A stretch of DNA of 64,000 nucleotides from Frigoribacterium sp. CFBP 13712 (GTDB lineage Bacteria > Actinomycetota > Actinomycetes > Actinomycetales > Microbacteriaceae), in NCBI RefSeq assembly GCF_014842255.1, contig NZ_JACYVH010000003.1:391223-455222 (forward strand), in the 5' to 3' direction. A program made the translations under genes and the position numbers. Below, piece by piece: positions 25,510 through 51,207 of this stretch. The notes below the pieces were generated by a model. The model ran no database searches, was not told the origin of the DNA, and was given only the letters and a program-made list of their open reading frames with translations. Position 1 is the stretch's first letter. Every line of letters starts with the position of its first letter.

Positions 25510-25532
25510 GTTTCTCGTGCGTCCTGTGCTTC

Positions 25533-25594
25533 GGCGGGTTCCCGTCATCGGCGGCGGGTCGGCGCTGACCCGCCACGGATGACGGGAACCCGCC
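25533..25594. terminator. long palindrome after the GH2 gene
   Basis: Outer arms of about 28 bases, reading GGCGGGTTCCCGTCATC and its complement, close on a small centre near 25561. It follows the GH2 stop and precedes the promoter of the transporter operon, so it should isolate the two units. The same palindrome recurs at 41307-41371. Confidence 0.7.
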
Positions 25595-25682
25595 GCACCC
25601 CCGCGCGGAACTCCTCCGCGCGAAACCCCTCCGGGCACGCCGAAGGGCCGCGCGGCACGTGCCGCGCGGCCCTGCGCTCGAC

Positions 25683-41282: not shown

Positions 41283-41306
41283 CAGAAGGAGCCGAGCCGG
41301 CAGGTG

Positions 41307-41371
41307 CGGCGGGTGGGTGTCATCCGCGGCGGGTCAGCGCTGACCCGCCACGGATGACAGGAACCCGCCCC
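41307..41371. terminator. long palindrome, second copy
   Basis: Near-copy of the palindrome at 25533-25594: GCGGCGGGTCAGCGC at the centre and TGACCCGCCACGGATGAC with GGAACCCGCC outward. It lies between convergent stops (41282 and 41390), as expected for a bidirectional terminator. Confidence 0.7.
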
Positions 41372-41389
41372 ACCCCGCCAGCACGCACC

Positions 41390-42100
41390 TCACTCCCCCT
41401 CCATCGCAGGCAACCCGACGGTCACGAACAACGCGGTGGACATCATCGCCGCGGCCGCCACAGCGATCGCGTCGCCCGCCATCCGCGCACCCCACTTCCC
41501 CTGCTGCAGCGCCCTCCCCCGCGCGTACACATCGCCCGACCACGGGATCTCGCGGTGCATCGCCGGCAGCGACCCGCTGGCCGACACGAGGGTCGCGAGC
41601 GCCGCCTCCCGCACCGACGGCTCCGCGCCGTCCACGAGCACGCGCCGCAGGGAGGCGACGAGCTCGCCCCGCCGACCCGCGCCGCCTTCGACCAGCCGAG
41701 ACCCCGGGATGAACCCGAGCATCCTGGTCGCCTCACGCCTCAACACCCCGCGCTCGACCAGCCGCTCGATCGTCGGCGCCCGAAGCCCGGGTCCGATCTC
41801 GAGCACCAGCGAGTACGCGTCGGTGGGCTTCTTCTCGACCCGCTGCCAGGTGCCGAGCAGCAGCGGATCGGTCGGCGCCGGCAGGTCCGTCACGCGCACC
41901 GGCCTCCCCCGCAGCGTCGTCTTCCGGTCGATGTCGACCTGGCCGGCGAGTGCGACCTCGGTCAGCACCGCTCCGGCGAGCACATGGAACAGCGGCGACC
42001 CCTCGCTGTAGATCGACCCCGACCCCGGGTCGAACAGCACGAGCAGAACGTCTTCGGCCAGTGAAGGAGCAGGAGCGGCAGTCGTCGTCGCATCGGTCAT
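41390..42100 (-). CDS. GPP34-family (GOLPH3-like) protein
   Basis: A 236-residue protein of the GPP34 family: LAEDVLLVLFDPGSG, LAGAVLTEVALAGQVDID, then TIERLVERGVLRRE and a helical C-terminus. In eukaryotes GOLPH3/Vps74 binds phosphoinositides; actinobacterial members are common but uncharacterised. A hydrophobic C-terminal stretch (AIAVAAAAMMSTALFVTVGLP) may touch the membrane. The start overlaps the end of the decayed MerR gene (ATGA), so the two formed one unit. Confidence 0.82.
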   Translation of the reverse strand: MTDATTTAAPAPSLAEDVLLVLFDPGSGSIYSEGSPLFHVLAGAVLTEVALAGQVDIDRKTTLRGRPVRVTDLPAPTDPLLLGTWQRVEKKPTDAYSLVLEIGPGLRAPTIERLVERGVLRREATRMLGFIPGSRLVEGGAGRRGELVASLRRVLVDGAEPSVREAALATLVSASGSLPAMHREIPWSGDVYARGRALQQGKWGARMAGDAIAVAAAAMMSTALFVTVGLPAMEGE

Positions 42101-43072: not shown

Positions 43073-43453
43073 CTACTCGGTCCGCGCTCTCCAAGTCGTC
43101 GCTATGGTCTCCACGGTTGTGTCGACTTCCTCGTGTTCCCAGAACCGCAGCACCGTCCATCCGAGCGCTTCGAGCCTAGTGGTCGTCTCGAGGTCGCATT
43201 CCGCATTGCGCTGGAGCTTGGGCACCCAGTAGTCGGAATTGCGCTTCGGTCGCGTGGCGTGCACCGGACACCCCTGCCAGAAGCAGCCGTCGATGAAGAC
43301 GGCAATCTTCTGTCTCGTGAAGACGATGTCCGCGCGGGTGCGCAAATCGAGGCTTGGCCTGACGTCCACCTGGTATCGGGACATAGAAAGTACGGGCACC
43401 GCGTGGAGTTGCAGGGCCACTTCGTCAAAGGAGCAATACGTACCGCCACCCAA
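43073..43453 (-). CDS. vsr: Vsr-like endonuclease, N-terminus short
   Basis: The core of a very-short-patch-repair endonuclease is clear: ADIVFTRQKIAVFIDGCFWQGCP, the zinc-binding Cys/His set, NSDYWVPKLQRNAE, then GWTVLRFWEHE. Vsr nicks at T:G mismatches left by deamination of 5-methylcytosine, which fits the cytosine methyltransferase in the same operon. The first 25 or so residues of the family are missing or weak; the frame is closed upstream by TAA and only TTG 43453 or a GTG further in can serve as start. It may be truncated. It lies 36 bases after the DUF4420 gene. Confidence 0.7.
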   Translation of the reverse strand: MGGGTYCSFDEVALQLHAVPVLSMSRYQVDVRPSLDLRTRADIVFTRQKIAVFIDGCFWQGCPVHATRPKRNSDYWVPKLQRNAECDLETTTRLEALGWTVLRFWEHEEVDTTVETIATTWRARTE

Positions 43454-43488
43454 AAAGCCACACGCTTTACCGCATGAGGGATCGCGGG

Positions 43489-44544
43489 TCAGTTATTGAG
43501 TATGAGATAGGCAACCTGATTCGCACCCTCCACAGGGTTGTCTACACTGACCGCTCCATGAAATGAAAGATTTACTCGAAAACGCACAGAACCATCGACG
43601 ACATGTCTGTGTTTCTCAACATCTTCACTTCTCAGGACACCTATGTCCGAACTATCCATGTTATACGCACGAAAAAACATTGTCTGATATGGGACATTGT
43701 ATCCCGACTCTGACGATTGGGTGTTGTGATCGTATCCATTCCAGGAAACGGCACCATACTCCGCAATTCGTGCAATGAATTGATCAATAACGAGTGACGA
43801 CACTCCAACGCTTGCCATGCGAGTCTTAATTCGCTCTACAAGACTCGGCACCGTGAAAGCGTTGTCCGTATCGATGCCGGCATGCTGCAACCCGATACTT
43901 ACAAGTAAGAAGCGGGCTTCATCGCCCCCTTGTTCGCGCTCAACCTGGTGCACTCCTTCGACATGATGTGATGACGTAAAGCCAGTGGTTGTCTTCACTT
44001 CAATGCCGGTGTCATCAAGCACGAAATCTCGTGCCGATCGTCTCCAACCATGCCAACCACTAACGATGTCCAAGACGCGAGCATCGGCTGCCTGGCGACA
44101 CAATACTTCGAGAAGAAGAAGTTCACCTGCGAGGCCCAGTAGGGCCTCATTAGACAACGTAAGTTTCTCCATGGCTAGTCGAATAATTGGCTCAGTTAGG
44201 GTGAAAGCTCGACCGAGGTCACTATCCGCACCATTCCTCAGTAGTTCAACACAGACGAATGCAGCCACCTGATCGAAGTGTGAAAGAGCCGGCAAAACGA
44301 GTCGGGTGGCCTCAAAAGAGGAACCGTCATCCCTGTAAACCGTCCGATATTCGGACGCTTCCTTAACAGAACTGGAATGGGGCCTTACTTCGATACCTCT
44401 AAGAAAAATCTCGACTTTGCCATCGGCGTCCCGTGCGACTCCTATGACGGCGGCGGAGGTCATCCATTCGACCGTTCGAGATCCCACTTGCCGCGACACC
44501 GGAAGGCGCTCTATGCGCTGCCGGACATCTTCATAACTCGTCAT
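43489..44544 (-). CDS. PD-(D/E)XK nuclease-like protein (DUF4420)
   Basis: A 351-residue protein with the DUF4420 pattern: LAGELLLLEVL (about 138-148), then RDFVLDDTGIEVKTTTG with Asp and the ExK pair (E182, K184), the putative nuclease site. The rest is a beta-rich domain with many aromatic residues at the end. The gene overlaps the Z1 gene by 14 bases. In known neighbourhoods DUF4420 accompanies Z1 ATPases and a methyltransferase, presumably as the restriction nuclease. Its base composition is clearly lower in GC than the chromosome. Confidence 0.8.
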   Translation of the reverse strand: MTSYEDVRQRIERLPVSRQVGSRTVEWMTSAAVIGVARDADGKVEIFLRGIEVRPHSSSVKEASEYRTVYRDDGSSFEATRLVLPALSHFDQVAAFVCVELLRNGADSDLGRAFTLTEPIIRLAMEKLTLSNEALLGLAGELLLLEVLCRQAADARVLDIVSGWHGWRRSARDFVLDDTGIEVKTTTGFTSSHHVEGVHQVEREQGGDEARFLLVSIGLQHAGIDTDNAFTVPSLVERIKTRMASVGVSSLVIDQFIARIAEYGAVSWNGYDHNTQSSESGYNVPYQTMFFRAYNMDSSDIGVLRSEDVEKHRHVVDGSVRFRVNLSFHGAVSVDNPVEGANQVAYLILNN

Positions 44545-47356
44545 TAGACATTTCCGAGGTGTCGATCAGCGAACCTGCTCGCGTGGCGGCGAACTGCTCG
44601 GGTCCGCCAGCTGGTATGCAAACGCCGACGGCGACTGCCGGATGAGGTTGGTCTAGCCGCTTGTTGAAGTAAAACAGAATTTGGCCATGCGACCCCTGCG
44701 GTCGCCACGAGCTCGTTCCCGCTGTCGCCGGAAGAGACTCGTGGCGATGGTAGTAGTCGAAGAACTCGTCGCCGCGGTAGTCCAACATACCCGCGCTTGG
44801 GTCGTTCGTACCCCAAGTCGTGCTGAGGTCGCCTTTGGCATTGAGGCCCTTTCGAGTGGCCCGAATTGCAAACCCGAGACCAGGTAACGCATCGCCTGTC
44901 ACACTCTCGCCATCACCGTAACGGATGCCAACGGAAAACCGCGGCTGGTGAAGTTGCTTGGCCGCCAGGTTAGCCATGGCCCATCGCCCGGAGGGCACCC
45001 CCGCGACGAAGAGACCACGAACAGGGCGCGTAAGGCACGCCTCCCACAAGCGAAGATAAGCAGCAATGGAATATGGGTCCTCAAACCGCGCCTCGGAAGT
45101 CGGCCCACTCGGGCGCTCTGGGGCATTGTAAAAATTCATGCCGGCAGGGAGCTTTACCACACCGTCCACACGCACTTGAATCTCCTGCCACAACTCCGCC
45201 AACCGACTTTCCTGGCCAGGGGCGTAAGAGTCAAACGATAAGCTCTGAAGTAGGTCTGCCGCCTCGGAGAGGGAAAGCGTCCGGTCCAAAGCGCGTCCGC
45301 GCGTCACGCTCCCAACGTTAACGTCAGAAGATGCTGCGGCGAAGAGATTAGCGACCAGTTGCGCATTTGGGTCGACGCGCTGTCCATCGTTGACCAATCT
45401 AACGAAAGGCCTCGAACCTGGACAAAGCGGCAAACGGCCGATATTGGCGATCTTTGCTGTGGCAAGAAATCCCATGCCATGCAAAACCACCGGGGAAGGC
45501 GCAGCACCCTCAGCCATCTTTGCCGCAACCCCTTCACGCAATGCCTCATCTACGTGATGGTACGAGCGAAATAATTCAATCTGTTGCTTTCCGGCGAACA
45601 TGCGACATAGAGCAATATATTCGCCTCTGTAGCCAAACCAGCGTTGCATCTGCATTTGCGTGTCAGCAACGGGGCTTGCGGAGTTGCGGCGGAACAAAGC
45701 CGTAGTCATGCCCTCGAGGGTAAGCCCTCGGGCCATCACGTTGCCGGACACGAATATTGTCGAGAGGTCGCGCGCAGCGTGCCATTTCCCGGTCGATTGG
45801 TTGAGAATCGGCTTGTACTCGGGTCGATCGTCGGCACTTGGGTCGCTGTTCACAACGGATACGCGCGTGCCCGGGATAATTTCCGCTTCCAATATGCCAC
45901 GCACTGTCGACCAATCAGGAATCGACCGTGGATTCATGACATTAAATTCTAAGGAAATAGCCGCTGACGACGATGTGTAACGATCTATCCATGCCTCCCA
46001 CAAGGACTCCTCAGCGTACATCTTCGCAACCAGTTGACTCGGGAGGCGTGCATCGCCCGATTCGATCATGTCCCGTGCCACGGCGCGGTCTAGAACGCCA
46101 GCCCATAGAAGAACGTCTTCGGCCGCCGCGAAGTGAGCACCGATGTCAGCTGCCGGGTGCAACAGCATTGAGTGAGCGGGCGGCGAAATGACTTCTAAGT
46201 CTTCTTGAGAGGAGAAATCCAAGGATCTTACCGAATGCGGCCCGATTACACCTGACGTGGACGTCGAAGCCCAATGCAATCTTATAGCCCCAGCGATGAG
46301 GAAAGCCCGGAGAGAATCAGCGAGATCCCCGTCGGCCGCCTCCGACGTTTCGACGCAAAGCCCAGCACCCGCTCCACGCTCGTAATAGACCTCACCCCCA
46401 GTGTAAAAGTTCTTAAGGCCAGTCGGTTCTGGATACGTGGACGAGCGAAGGGCATCTAGATTGTCGTGATCGACTTGTTGGCCCACATCCAGAGGTGTCC
46501 TGAGTGAGATGACAAAATCTCGCGGAGCCAAAGGATTGTGGTCTTCTTGCAGCAAATTAGCCTGAGGAGTAGCTGTGTACCCAATGTATGATGCGAAAAG
46601 GTTATTCGGTGCACTGCTGGATCGCGGCTCCCACAGGTCGGCAATCGCACGAGGAATCTGCTTGAGAGTAGGCGTCAGCGGGTCTTGAGCCTGTTCCACG
46701 ACCGCATCAAGCACGGATCCATCATCGGCCTCATCGTCAAGAACGAGCATGTGCACAGGACGACCGAGCTGCTCAACTTCCCCGAAGACGCTCTGCCTTA
46801 GTTCACGGCCAAGGGCATACAAGTGATCCGTATGCTTCATCGCGACAATCACTAACGGTAAACCACGAGTCAATTTGCGCCTGACTTGCGCAGAAGGCAA
46901 TTTGTACATCTTGTCAAGCGAGCTAGAATTGCCGGACGTTACAAAACCGGGGCTCGGAGACAACATTCGACGCCGCGATTTTTCTACGCCCTCCTCGCCC
47001 GCGTCTAACTGCTCAACTAAACGCTCGTAGGTTTGACGCCAAAGGGATAGACGTGTACCCGCAAGTATGACAACTATGTCAATACCCTGATCGAGCGCGA
47101 GCGCAGTTACCCCGAACATTGAGGCTGTTTTACCCGATTGCACTGACCCTAAAACAAGCCCGGTGCGTGCTCTGTCTTTGGGCCACGTATCCGTACCCGG
47201 ATGACCGCCACCCAATAATCCCCGGTCGACAATGTACGTACAATCAGCCTCAAGTACGCCACGTGCGGTCGACGTCATCTGATGCAGCGCGGCAGAATAG
47301 CGGTCCCACCACGTGCTTTCCGATTTGGACGGCCCGTCGAAGTGCACTTGTTCCAT
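44531..47356 (-). CDS. Z1-domain superfamily II ATPase
   Basis: A 941-residue protein. It has Walker A GSVQSGKTA (residues 70-78), a DEAD-like motif (VLDDEADD, 206-212), GYTATPQAN (259-267), and the Z1 domain with FVSGNVMARGLTLEGM (about 545) and QMQMQRWFGYR (about 575). These are superfamily II helicase/translocase features, so it should move on DNA for a restriction system. It follows the DUF262 gene by 7 bases. The C-terminal 250 residues look like a separate substrate or partner domain. Family call is firm; the role is from family knowledge. Confidence 0.87.
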   Translation of the reverse strand: MEQVHFDGPSKSESTWWDRYSAALHQMTSTARGVLEADCTYIVDRGLLGGGHPGTDTWPKDRARTGLVLGSVQSGKTASMFGVTALALDQGIDIVVILAGTRLSLWRQTYERLVEQLDAGEEGVEKSRRRMLSPSPGFVTSGNSSSLDKMYKLPSAQVRRKLTRGLPLVIVAMKHTDHLYALGRELRQSVFGEVEQLGRPVHMLVLDDEADDGSVLDAVVEQAQDPLTPTLKQIPRAIADLWEPRSSSAPNNLFASYIGYTATPQANLLQEDHNPLAPRDFVISLRTPLDVGQQVDHDNLDALRSSTYPEPTGLKNFYTGGEVYYERGAGAGLCVETSEAADGDLADSLRAFLIAGAIRLHWASTSTSGVIGPHSVRSLDFSSQEDLEVISPPAHSMLLHPAADIGAHFAAAEDVLLWAGVLDRAVARDMIESGDARLPSQLVAKMYAEESLWEAWIDRYTSSSAAISLEFNVMNPRSIPDWSTVRGILEAEIIPGTRVSVVNSDPSADDRPEYKPILNQSTGKWHAARDLSTIFVSGNVMARGLTLEGMTTALFRRNSASPVADTQMQMQRWFGYRGEYIALCRMFAGKQQIELFRSYHHVDEALREGVAAKMAEGAAPSPVVLHGMGFLATAKIANIGRLPLCPGSRPFVRLVNDGQRVDPNAQLVANLFAAASSDVNVGSVTRGRALDRTLSLSEAADLLQSLSFDSYAPGQESRLAELWQEIQVRVDGVVKLPAGMNFYNAPERPSGPTSEARFEDPYSIAAYLRLWEACLTRPVRGLFVAGVPSGRWAMANLAAKQLHQPRFSVGIRYGDGESVTGDALPGLGFAIRATRKGLNAKGDLSTTWGTNDPSAGMLDYRGDEFFDYYHRHESLPATAGTSSWRPQGSHGQILFYFNKRLDQPHPAVAVGVCIPAGGPEQFAATRAGSLIDTSEMSNDEL

Positions 47357-47363
47357 GGTTCAG

Positions 47364-49256
47364 TCACACGCCCTTCGGCAAAATACGACTTGCCAGGAGA
47401 GACTCGACGCCGGAAGAACCATAATTGGAACGAATTTGCTCCGAGGCCAGAGAAATATCTATTCCAAGCTCCTCAACGACACCCGCGGCGATACGGGCAA
47501 TGAAGTCCCATTGCGTACGAGTTTGAGTCTTGGAAGGACGCGTCCACCGGCTAAGCGCAGCCTCCCGAATCCCTTCGGCATGCGCCTCGAGTTGTTCTTC
47601 TACAGTCAATGGCGCATACGCCGTGGCAATAGCAACTCCGAGTAGTGTCCCGACCAATTGAAGATCTTGCCATCGGCCGCTCTTCCCATCCCCCCGGAAT
47701 CTCTCTGGCCAAAGCTCATCGTAAGCTGCGTGCAGACTGGCCGCTTTTGAAACAAGAATGAACAGGTCAGCGAGAATTGCTGTCTTGCGCAGCGGATGTG
47801 AAGGATTATCCTGTACCCGCTTTAAGAGGTCATCAGTGTGTCGTGCAGTTGAGGGAAGCAGCTTGCTCCCCGAATCGTTTACAAGCGCCGCTATGATCCA
47901 TCCAAGCACCTTGGTGCGGCGATAGCGGGCTTCGCCGAATCCGTAGTCAGCAAGAGTCTTTCCAAGTTCCCCAATACCAGATACTTGCACGAGCGAAGGC
48001 GCGATGTCTGCGACTTGCGCGCTAGCACTTGCGTCACCTGCGGCCACGAGGATGGCGCGAGTCAGTTCTACATCATGAAAGACCGCGTTACGTATCTCCT
48101 CAGCATTTAAGTGCATGCCTTGCTTGTTATACAGATTGAAAACTTCATGAATCTGACGCTGGCTAGCCTTTGTATATTCAATGACAGGCACTTTATAGTC
48201 TGGCGCGCCTTCAAATAATTCCTCGACCGTCACTTCTTGGTCGGCTACTTGAATCGTATGGCCCTTAATTTGCGTGTAATACTTGCCACGCAATTGCTCT
48301 AAATCTTTTCCGACCAGCACTCCGCTTTTGTCGTCGCGAAGACGAAAAGGAAAATAGTAATCATCTTCCAACTTGGTGGTGAGCGGCTCACCCATATACG
48401 CTTTCCATGCCGTTCGGAATTTTGGATAATCATTTTGAAATTTATCCAGAAATCCAGCCTCTGGATTTGATTTGTCAGCCTCAGCTACTCTCGCTACGGC
48501 TGCGGGATGTTTGCCTACGAAGCGTAAAATAGCCGTCAGTCGCTGCTTACCATCGACAACATCGTCGGGTTCCGCACCAGCCTTACGGAGCAATATGATG
48601 GAAGGCAATGGAATGCCACGAAGAATCGACTCAATGAGCTTCTGCCGATCCCCAGTTCGCCACACGTCTCCCCGCTGATATGACGGCGTCAGGTTCAGTT
48701 TTTTCTTGGTCAATTGAAAAATATGCCAGACGTCAGCTTTCGCAGTTACAGGTTCAGCCGGCGTGACATCTTCGTCATCACCTTCAGTTTCCCAACGACT
48801 CACCCACGTCGCAGTTCCGGACGCGTAAGTACCGCCCACGGCAGTAAGTTCCGCTAGAAACTCATCTTTAAGCCGGGTGGCCACTTCAGCTCGCGCGGCG
48901 AGGCGCTCCATGGCATCGCCAGTCAGCCTCGCAACTCCATTCTCCTCTTCAACGCCTCCTGCGACTGGAGCAAAACTGAGACTTCTAGCAATACTAAAAA
49001 TAAATGCTTCGCGGTCGTTGTCCGAGAGATCATCATCGAAGTGCAGCCAGCCCTGGACATCGACTAGCCTTGAAATCCAAGCGTCGGACTCGAAGTCGAC
49101 GTCGGCGGGCGTAAAGCTAGCGCACGCTTGAACCCCCTCGGGACAATCACTTACGTCCGATAGTTCGGAGAGAGCTTCAGCAACTCGATCCTGCGCTTGG
49201 CCGCGCAAACTTTCGTCGGGCCCATCCTCGAGAGTCTCAGGAGATTCGTGAGTCAT
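47364..49256 (-). CDS. DUF262-domain protein (ParB-like NTPase/nuclease)
   Basis: A 630-residue protein. The first 170 residues are helical and acidic. DUF262 follows: LTPSYQRGDVWRTGDRQKLIESILRGIPLPSIILLR (about 189-223) and the VDGKQRLTAILRF motif (about 234-246), a form of D-G-x-Q-R seen in GmrS/Dnd-related proteins. No C-terminal HNH (DUF1524) domain is visible, so it resembles the NTP-sensing half alone. ATG 49256 has GGGAGG upstream. It sits between the methyltransferase and Z1 genes, where related systems carry a MutL/MORC-like ATPase or AIPR gene. Confidence 0.82.
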   Translation of the reverse strand: MTHESPETLEDGPDESLRGQAQDRVAEALSELSDVSDCPEGVQACASFTPADVDFESDAWISRLVDVQGWLHFDDDLSDNDREAFIFSIARSLSFAPVAGGVEEENGVARLTGDAMERLAARAEVATRLKDEFLAELTAVGGTYASGTATWVSRWETEGDDEDVTPAEPVTAKADVWHIFQLTKKKLNLTPSYQRGDVWRTGDRQKLIESILRGIPLPSIILLRKAGAEPDDVVDGKQRLTAILRFVGKHPAAVARVAEADKSNPEAGFLDKFQNDYPKFRTAWKAYMGEPLTTKLEDDYYFPFRLRDDKSGVLVGKDLEQLRGKYYTQIKGHTIQVADQEVTVEELFEGAPDYKVPVIEYTKASQRQIHEVFNLYNKQGMHLNAEEIRNAVFHDVELTRAILVAAGDASASAQVADIAPSLVQVSGIGELGKTLADYGFGEARYRRTKVLGWIIAALVNDSGSKLLPSTARHTDDLLKRVQDNPSHPLRKTAILADLFILVSKAASLHAAYDELWPERFRGDGKSGRWQDLQLVGTLLGVAIATAYAPLTVEEQLEAHAEGIREAALSRWTRPSKTQTRTQWDFIARIAAGVVEELGIDISLASEQIRSNYGSSGVESLLASRILPKGV

Positions 49257-49291
49257 TTTGGGTTCCTCCCAGATGCTGTCGTAAGTTGCCT

Positions 49292-50698
49292 CTATGCAGC
49301 ATTGCACGTCATCCCGACATCCGACGACACAATTTTCATCCGGCTCTCGCCTGCAACGAGATCCTTGACGAGAGTCTCTGCAATCTTTCGGACGACCATC
49401 GCGTTCACGGCGTTGCCCAAAGCCTTGTACGCGTCAGAGTCATTAGCGGGAAGAGTAATTCCTCCAAGGCTTTGCAGCCTTGCGCATTCGCCAGGTGTCA
49501 TGTAGCGCCGCGCACCCGTACCTGAAATATTAGATCCTAAGATTGGAACCTGTGTCTGCGTCATAGCGATCAACGCAGGCGCCGTTGTTGGCCGCTTCAC
49601 TCGGATTCCTGATGCTCGAACTTGCATCACATAGTCATCTATATCTCTGACGCCACCTTGAGCATTCCATTCGAACTTCTGGAAGCTAGAAGGGTATGTC
49701 CACGGCTTCCACTGAGCCAGCCACGGATCGATCCAGGCTTCGTTGTCACGATAGAAATGTCGGTTCTGCCGAATGAAGGCGCGCTTCCACTGAGGGAATA
49801 CAAGGCTGCCTTCACGTCGCGAATGGCTTGGAATTATTTCTTTTTGCTCAGCGATATCAAGTCCTCGAAGCGGCCAACCAAACGAACCACTAAAGTTATA
49901 GAGTTCGTCTGAAGATCCCTCCGACCAAGCTCGAGGTGGCGTCATCTCCTCAAAGGGATAATTCGCCCGAAATTCCATTGACCAAATTGGAAAAGATGGA
50001 AGTTTTACGTTCTTCGGTGCACGTTGCAGAAAGTCACTCCACATGTTGATCGCCATCTGAGTCCGAGGAGGTACCTCACGGACAGGACGAGCATCCGGAT
50101 CTAGTGCAGTAGAAATGGTCGTTATCTCTTGGCCCTCAACTGGCCACTTGAATCCACTCAGTCCTCCCTCTGATGAAAGGGAGCCAACAAAATACGCCCG
50201 TTCGCGAACCTGCGGGATACCGAACTGATGCGGCGACAATTTTTTAACATCGACCTCGTAGCCAAGATCGACAAGCATCCTGAGGATGGTCGCTAATGTC
50301 GAACCACCATCATGTTTTAAAATATTTGCGACATTTTCCAAGACGAATCGACTGGGACGCTTCACGCGCAAAATATCATGTACTTTGAAGAATAGATGAC
50401 CTTGGAGCGTGTCCTCAAATCCTTGCTGAGCACCTGACTTAGAGAACGGCTGACACGGAAAGCCGGCTGTGAGAACTTCATGGTGTGGCACTTGTTCGGC
50501 AATCACCTCATCCGTGTCAAGTTGGTTTACGTCCGACCATGGGGCGACACCAAAATTCGTTTTATAGAGAGCGTTGAGGCCTGACTCCCACTCCGCCGCG
50601 AATACGCCCTGGCCACCGAGTTCCGCGAGCGCGACGTGAAAACCTCCGAGCCCAGCAAACAAGTCAACAAACCTGAACGAGGGAGGTTGGCCTACCAT
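49292..50698 (-). CDS. dcm: DNA cytosine-5 methyltransferase
   Basis: A 468-residue C5 methyltransferase with motif I (FAGLGGF, 14-20), motif IV with catalytic Cys82 (GFPCQPFSKSG), motif VI (FVLENVAN, 118-125), motif VIII (QVRERAYFVG) and motif X (YKALGNAVNAMV). Between VIII and X lies a target-recognition region of about 220 residues, larger than in minimal enzymes. ATG 50698 with AAGGAG is chosen over a 45-residue longer frame. It would protect host DNA from the neighbouring nuclease genes. First gene of the operon. Confidence 0.9.
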   Translation of the reverse strand: MVGQPPSFRFVDLFAGLGGFHVALAELGGQGVFAAEWESGLNALYKTNFGVAPWSDVNQLDTDEVIAEQVPHHEVLTAGFPCQPFSKSGAQQGFEDTLQGHLFFKVHDILRVKRPSRFVLENVANILKHDGGSTLATILRMLVDLGYEVDVKKLSPHQFGIPQVRERAYFVGSLSSEGGLSGFKWPVEGQEITTISTALDPDARPVREVPPRTQMAINMWSDFLQRAPKNVKLPSFPIWSMEFRANYPFEEMTPPRAWSEGSSDELYNFSGSFGWPLRGLDIAEQKEIIPSHSRREGSLVFPQWKRAFIRQNRHFYRDNEAWIDPWLAQWKPWTYPSSFQKFEWNAQGGVRDIDDYVMQVRASGIRVKRPTTAPALIAMTQTQVPILGSNISGTGARRYMTPGECARLQSLGGITLPANDSDAYKALGNAVNAMVVRKIAETLVKDLVAGESRMKIVSSDVGMTCNAA

Positions 50699-51133
50699 TT
50701 TGCGCGTTCTCCTTAAAATCCGAGATATCGTTCGATTTGCTTCTGCCCCTGAGGTGAGGCACGAAGCAGAATACGGCGGTTCACCGCAGATTCCACGGGC
50801 CGTTACCTCAACAGTAGGAGCAGCGTCCGACATAGCTGGTGTCCCGCGCCGGCGAGGCCGCCCCGATGAAGTCAGGCAGTGGACTGTCCCCAGCTCTAGT
50901 TGGCGCTCGTATCAGAACGTGCCAGCGGTCCTCTACTGCTACGGGGCACACTTCGCAACTTCGCCAGCTAACCCACAGGCGCGGGAGCCCCGGTTATTTG
51001 GACATCGGAGGCACCACAGAAGTGCAGCGTCCGCGCGATCAGTACCCACCATCCCCTGACAGCGGGAGCAGAAATGCGAGTGGCTGTGCCTCGATTGTCA
51101 CACGGCCTTAGCAAGCATTACTCGCATCATTGG
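50699..51133. other. no gene seen; left of tRNA-Pro
   Basis: About 435 bases between the methyltransferase start and the tRNA. It should hold the promoter of the defence operon. Short frames only. No integrase or clear attachment repeat was found. Confidence 0.5.

Positions 51134-51207
<74 letters not shown>

Follow-up and report, generated by a model that had tools for sequence, protein, structure and literature searches.

A window of 64,000 nucleotides (nt) from Frigoribacterium sp. CFBP 13712 (NZ_JACYVH010000003.1, positions 391,223 to 455,222 of the forward strand) contains a candidate restriction-modification operon. Four intact and tightly packed genes on the minus strand encode, in this order, a C5-cytosine methyltransferase (Dcm), a DUF262 protein, a Z1 ATPase and a DUF4420 protein, and are followed by a vsr remnant (Table 1). 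Dcm and DUF262 are separated by 35 nt, DUF262 and Z1 by 7 nt, and Z1 and DUF4420 overlap by 14 nt. An earlier, sequence-only reading of this DNA described five co-directional packed genes; five minus-strand frames are indeed found there, four of them intact, but the fifth, vsr, is decayed. The same reading started Dcm at 50698 rather than at the longest frame (50833), and this start is retained, with AAGGAG ahead of the ATG and a product matching the length of its relatives. The DUF262 gene most likely starts at the ATG at 49256, behind GGAGG.

Table 1. Features of the operon region in window coordinates (aa, amino acids; pLDDT, predicted local distance difference test).
Feature	Position	Strand	Matches and motifs
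C5-cytosine DNA methyltransferase (Dcm-like), 468 aa	49292..50698	-	PF00145, 6.6e-58 (Pfam); PCQ, ENV, QVRER and GNAVN present
DUF262 protein (GmrSD_N, ParB/Srx-type), 630 aa	47364..49256	-	PF03235, 9.8e-24; PSYQR and DGKQR motifs
Z1 superfamily II ATPase, 941 aa	44531..47356	-	PF10593, 1.9e-27; GxxQSGKT (70-77), DDEADD (207-212), QMQMQRWFGYRG (567-578)
DUF4420 protein, PD-(D/E)XK nuclease type, 351 aa	43489..44544	-	PF14390, 1.4e-17; model pLDDT 93.6
Decayed vsr remnant	43073..43453	-	Pfam Vsr, 1.9e-6, 28.1 bits (cut-off 27); TIGR00632, 87.8 bits (cut-off 97.85)
tRNA-Pro(GGG)	51131..51207	-	3' end toward operon; one edge of variable block (same-genus synteny)

Alignments show that the catalytic motifs of the four genes are intact. 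E141, D173 and E182xK184 of DUF4420 are invariant among 53 aligned proteins. Among 76 DUF262 proteins, at least 95% have Y210-Q211-R212 and D252-G-K-Q-R256, and GmrSD_N is present in all 55 aligned members; the N- and C-terminal regions are mostly helical and match no named family. The description of a large DUF262 protein lacking the HNH half holds, GmrSD_N being matched and no DUF1524/HNH being found by Pfam in the window protein (E<=0.1) or in 55 relatives (E<=0.001).

The predicted structure of DUF262 has a pLDDT of 89.1 and a predicted template modelling score (pTM) of 0.69. Foldseek searches with the DUF262 and DUF4420 models returned nothing at E<=0.001. The weak DUF262 matches include recurring ParB/Noc chains, some with analogues of cytidine diphosphate (CDP) or cytidine triphosphate (CTP) (probability 0.08-0.35), and fit the published ParB/Srx assignment of DUF262 but are no proof of it. 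The DUF4420 matches of highest probability, none of them significant, are the T4 MotA DNA-binding domain (0.54-0.77) and a type III secretion chaperone (0.60); EcoRV reached 0.15. When the DUF262 alignment profile was compared with PDB, one entry was found, the DUF262 protein 7p9k (E 0.041), presumably BrxU.

Some relatives carry additional domains. An MTaX1 (methylase-associated X1) domain precedes DUF262 in L092 of Myxococcota (residues 118-217; one of 55 scanned). A further domain of about 110 residues (SKAEAVARMYxLG..PLGPGSKEKxSA...GDTITLxGLNRLVDG) occurs in about 22 of 27 DUF262 relatives with a long N-terminus, among them L068, L071, L075 and other Actinomycetota; in two proteins with this N-terminal domain that were tested, Pfam gives only GmrSD_N.

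The vsr frame has lost its conserved N-terminal part, its first possible start is TTG, and GCFWH has become GCFWQ. The His after GCFW presumably corresponds to His69, the catalytic residue in E. coli Vsr. An alignment of 26 Vsr proteins, the window's own among them, has 20 positions with at least 95% conservation, and 5 of these are changed here. At the same threshold Dcm, Z1 and DUF4420 keep every position and DUF262 has two mild changes; the operon is therefore counted as four intact genes and a remnant. With these losses and the TIGR00632 cut-off missed, the Vsr endonuclease is withdrawn as a fifth member. The remnant is the sole Vsr match in its own genome.

The gene set recurs widely. A Z1-seeded scan of genome contigs, in which 84,980 species are represented by one genome each, yields at least 78 distinct loci, with a bias of the seeding toward close relatives. 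In 74 of the 78, the gene directly upstream of Z1 encodes DUF262 (the exceptions are L051, L088 and L099, at a contig edge, and L105, with a partial Z1), which takes the association beyond chance, and DUF4420 lies immediately downstream of Z1 in 76 (L038 and L055 end there). A neighbourhood search for DUF262-Z1-DUF4420 sets, suggested with the sequence-only reading, thus recovers them as a regular arrangement. A C5 methyltransferase is present within 8 kb in 73/78 loci, being absent from L051, L088 and L099 (contig edges), L061 and L105, and it is directly upstream on the same strand in 53/78. The vsr gene is found in 25/78 loci, on the same strand in 12 and on the opposite strand in 13. No additional recurrent gene was found beside the set, the largest unnamed cluster covering 8 of 79 loci. 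According to record titles and the tree, the loci span Actinomycetota, Pseudomonadota, Myxococcota, Planctomycetota and Chloroflexota; the four-gene set is a widespread bacterial set and no local oddity. A conjugative Neorhizobium plasmid also carries it; there, two annotated genes make up the methyltransferase, and the Z1 match runs over a Z1 gene and a hypothetical one.

Frequencies were taken from class, phylum and family samples, whose counts include the window's own genome. DUF262 relatives covering most of the query are found in 3/296 class genomes (any DUF262 match in 40/296) and, at E<=1e-20, in 1/396 phylum genomes, which is the own genome (among the matches listed, two candidates per genome being scored). 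Z1 of the DUF262-linked type is found in 6/199 family genomes and any Z1 match in 26/199. Purifying selection is seen in one close pair, L032 and L033, with a ratio of nonsynonymous to synonymous substitution rates (dN/dS) of about 0.10-0.15 in all four genes. In the 68 complete sets, the identities of DUF262, Z1 and DUF4420 correlate with r of 0.89-0.96, and those of the methyltransferase catalytic part and Z1 with 0.74, the pairs being non-independent.

Different proteins accompany Z1 in other loci. The class sample has 34 Z1 places, spread over 30/296 genomes, and three of these places adjoin a full-length DUF262 relative. Longer stretches were taken for 36 Z1 loci, a subset of the places in the class and family samples, of which six are of the DUF262 type. 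Of the other 30, 22 have a GHKL protein at some point of the stretch and ten have AIPR. Four of the GHKL proteins were placed by Pfam: they lie directly upstream of Z1 in L155, L170 and L173, and L167 has DUF4420 between. Across the DUF262-type set, window region included, the only GHKL match is in L091, on the opposite strand, and AIPR is absent throughout. This distribution upholds the proposal that DUF262 occupies the slot of a MutL/MORC-like GHKL ATPase.

An unrooted tree of 54 Z1 proteins places its 23 DUF262-linked members, hand-picked for diversity, on one side of a branch of length 1.57 with a Shimodaira-Hasegawa-like approximate likelihood ratio test (SH-aLRT) support of 100; the 31 others all come from one class, and three loci labelled 'other' (L166, L172 and L185) do contain a GHKL match. 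The earlier label of a 'variant' operon understates the difference, since these Z1 proteins form a separate lineage in the tree. Among the other loci, a 1427-aa frame adjoining Z1-DUF4420 (L172:8558-12841) joins NERD and protein kinase matches, and an NB-ARC/TPR protein is encoded near the Z1 gene in L166 (9738-11900).

Methyltransferase specificity was compared in the 68 complete sets having a methyltransferase within 5 kb; the window's clade comprises 28 of them, from actinobacteria and proteobacteria. Recognition regions are usually the most variable part of restriction-modification systems. In the window's clade, however, the median identity is 0.63 in the recognition region, 0.72 in the catalytic part, 0.56 in DUF262, 0.62 in Z1 and 0.53 in DUF4420. 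Because the recognition region is unusually conserved where such regions usually vary most, these identities make it likely that the methyltransferase target is shared across the clade. The claim is limited to this clade, since recognition identity falls to 0.25-0.39 between clades and inside the other two (catalytic part 0.43-0.62).

Methyltransferase exchange is represented by two pairs. L109 and L089 have core identities of 0.70-0.83 and a recognition domain identity of 0.40, and no internal swapped block; the N-terminal ends of DUF262 (0.45) and Z1 (0.30-0.63) are less alike, their starts being uncertain. L068 and L071 have Z1 proteins that are 94% alike; most of their divergence falls in the methyltransferase and in DUF262, there in the N-terminal third, with the tract ending inside DUF262. 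As the methyltransferase and the DUF262 N-terminus are adjacent on the DNA, a single recombination tract is as good an explanation of this divergence as function. In 66 sets (L074 and L092 were dropped for distant methyltransferases), segment-wise distances in the restriction proteins were correlated with those of the methyltransferase recognition domain to look for a specificity region that co-evolves with it. The best regions differ among the three clades, and because of this inconsistency no specificity region is claimed.

The G+C content is 50-57% at 43-51 kb and 66-77% in the remaining window, except at 37-41 kb (59-63%). The operon starts about 430 bases 3' of tRNA-Pro, with no other listed frame of at least 100 aa on the same strand between them. 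The distance from tRNA-Pro to the homologue of window 13.4-16.3 kb is about 9.4 kb in one same-genus genome (G330) and about 12.5 kb in another (G402), compared with 34.8 kb here; a third (G457) has no match to it in the stretch examined. Window 33.0-36.2 kb matches far-off places in three same-genus genomes. The operon side of tRNA-Pro is a variable region, since same-genus synteny differs and the Z1 type is missing from the three same-genus genomes searched. Phage-type integration at the tRNA was considered, but the window holds no repeat of the tRNA 3' end (<=3 mismatches), and an attachment repeat is therefore not claimed. Of 60 related loci scanned, 13 have a tRNA or tmRNA gene, of varied identity. 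Phage records gave six weak partial matches to Z1, none covering 80%, and no DUF262 was confirmed in viral contigs. A defence island in the window was also set aside, ten open reading frames located between 25 and 41 kb being without a PADLOC match at 1e-5.

Near the operon, window 41390-42100 (minus strand) encodes a GPP34 (Golgi phosphoprotein 3-like) protein. A near-perfect palindrome of about 75 bases occurs at 41303-41376 and about 25532-25601, with a predicted RNA fold of -69.4 kcal/mol for a stretch of 100 bases. It matches dozens of places in its own genome, on both strands, at 82-92% identity and, in the same genus, G402 once among the matches listed. It resembles a repetitive extragenic palindromic (REP) or bacterial interspersed mosaic element (BIME), or a miniature inverted-repeat transposable element (MITE).

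The operon is probably a multi-subunit restriction-modification system of the Z1 branch that depends on nucleoside triphosphate (NTP), works with 5-methylcytosine (5mC) and has DUF262 as its nucleotide-driven switch. Dcm would methylate a motif in host DNA, and DUF262, Z1 and DUF4420 would form the restriction complex, Z1 acting as a DNA-stimulated ATPase or translocase and DUF4420 as the PD-(D/E)XK nuclease. DUF262 would be the nucleotide-hydrolysing, DNA-reading switch that releases motor and nuclease onto DNA with the unmethylated motif, filling the slot of the GHKL ATPase of other Z1-DUF4420 systems. Self and non-self DNA could thereby be distinguished, and an antiphage function may follow. 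Vsr, where present, would repair T:G mismatches arising from deaminated 5mC and would be dispensable. According to the available part of PMC4267653, CglI and NgoAVII combine a C5 methyltransferase, a separate nuclease and a superfamily II (SF2)-Z1 ATPase into an ATP-dependent system acting on GCSGC, and their N-protein has ATPase activity on DNA with non-methylated sites. In SspE, DUF262 reads a DNA mark and relays it through nucleotide hydrolysis (PMC9646914, partial text). An ATP-dependent 5mC restriction-modification system is held most likely because the set joins parts of the CglI/NgoAVII kind and of the SspE kind, with DUF262 in the GHKL place.

The near-constant C5 methyltransferase points first to ordinary self-DNA protection, and no support was found for a trigger specifically by phage-modified DNA. 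Several points weigh against the restriction-modification proposal. Each of its functional steps is inferred; no recognised sequence-specific domain comparable with the B3 domain of R.CglI was found in the restriction complex, Foldseek being empty at E<=0.001 and covariation inconsistent; and the methyltransferase, by itself, fits action licensed by methylation as well as it fits restriction of unmethylated DNA. In the former case, DUF262 would read the host 5mC motif and its stimulated NTPase would arm or release Z1-DUF4420 against unmethylated DNA, the methyltransferase being activator as well as shield. SspE requires host modification, and its DUF262 reads phosphorothioate via Y30/Q31 beside a DGQQR GTPase motif (PMC9646914, partial text). 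The window family keeps both YQR and DGKQR (see above); BrxU, also a DUF262 protein, acts on 5mC DNA, and Dazbog DUF262 likely recognises methylated DNA (PMC12707154 and PMC10952713, respectively, each in the part available). However, the equivalence of Y30/Q31 with YQ is taken from motif order rather than from an alignment with SspE, the third motif residue is Lys, compared with Gln in SspE, and simple restriction-modification accounts equally well for the methyltransferase; such licensing, although the main alternative, is rather unlikely. Carried further, the idea would make these restriction machines a class apart: the ParB/Srx-fold DUF262, as a nucleotide switch and rather than nuclease or motor, would read the cell's own 5mC and license the Z1 translocase and the PD-(D/E)XK nuclease against unmarked DNA, as a 5mC counterpart of the phosphorothioate logic of SspE with one motif across a phylum-crossing clade; this is unlikely.

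It is quite improbable that DUF262-Z1-DUF4420 is a type IV-like module attacking modified-cytosine phage DNA, with Dcm and Vsr as independent or addiction-like partners. GmrSD and BrxU, in the parts of their descriptions available, are DUF262 enzymes against modified cytosine, the methyltransferase can be exchanged, and in 20 of the 73 loci having one it is not the immediate upstream neighbour on the same strand. However, 73 of 78 loci do have one, three of the five misses lie at contig edges, and an enzyme that attacks 5mC would be a danger to a host whose own DNA the neighbouring methyltransferase marks with 5mC. The decay of vsr and the absence of the DUF262-linked Z1 type from the three same-genus genomes searched would also suit a decaying relic, functionless in its own genome, but the four other genes are intact, with the near-invariant positions unaltered in three and two mild changes in DUF262, and this is highly improbable. 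If the NTP-dependent restriction-modification reading is true, a phylum-crossing lineage is added to the multi-subunit Z1 restriction systems, and a DUF262 switch can replace the GHKL ATPase of MZA/MORC-like loci. A single methylome experiment might reveal the target of many members at once, given that the recognition domain in the window's clade is conserved instead of hypervariable.

No named system with this set was found in the PADLOC-DB protein models or in the papers searched, a coverage outside which most subscription journals fall; the search for an exact match to an already named system thus came back empty, in agreement with the view of the sequence-only reading. Full-text searches pairing DUF262, 'Z1 domain' or DUF4420 gave only PMC5379612, where DUF262 is unmentioned in the available part, and those since 2018 on 'Z1 domain', phage and methyltransferase gave Z1 only as a table row of restriction-modification families. 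The main text of a GmrSD neighbourhood study (PMC4619093) is without 'Z1 domain' or DUF4420; its 169 enriched domains are in the supplement, outside the search. A DUF262 review (PMC10952713) names GmrSD, BrxU, SspE, PD-T4-2, Menshen and Dazbog and, in the part available, not Z1. The best PADLOC-DB 2023 matches are DruM for Dcm, NsnA for DUF262, MzaC for Z1, MzaD for DUF4420 and Vsr for the remnant. Because the type II models MTase_II (236.7 bits), Helicase_II (84.4), REase_II (26.2, by DUF262) and Vsr (38.6) are also matched, as model scores apart from system rules and cut-offs, a PADLOC run might report the set as generic type II restriction-modification at best.

MZA systems include a MutL-like GHKL ATPase and AIPR. 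The operon is similar to them in that Z1 matches MzaC and DUF4420 matches MzaD (PADLOC-DB, NCBIfam), but the NCBIfam scores are far from the cut-offs (MzaC 121.9 bits against 1500, MzaD 31.8 against 420), AIPR is lacking, and GHKL is limited, across the DUF262-type set, to the opposite-strand match in L091. CglI/NgoAVII share the C5 methyltransferase, the separate nuclease and the SF2-Z1 ATPase (PMC4267653, partial text). Compared by description, not by N.CglI sequence, they differ in having a PLD-B3 nuclease and the target GCSGC, with DUF262 not described in that part, whereas DUF4420 and DUF262 are present here; Pfam finds no PLD nuclease with a B3 domain in the operon. The MORC/paraMORC operons (Iyer et al., 2008; PMC2292703, main text) likewise combine a distinct superfamily II helicase, taken as Z1 from its motif, with a predicted endonuclease, Dcm and Vsr, but the GHKL slot here holds DUF262, which is absent from that main text. 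An island of Corynebacterium diphtheriae BH8 unites a Z1 helicase, a Dcm-like methylase and DUF4420 (PMC5379612, partial text); it differs in its EcoRII-like nuclease and its methylase fused to a helix-turn-helix domain, and three of its proteins are unclassified. With GmrSD, BrxU and SspE the operon shares the DUF262 core with its DG(K/Q)QR motif, but here DUF262 is without DUF1524/HNH, nuclease and motor are separate proteins, and a C5 methyltransferase stands alongside.

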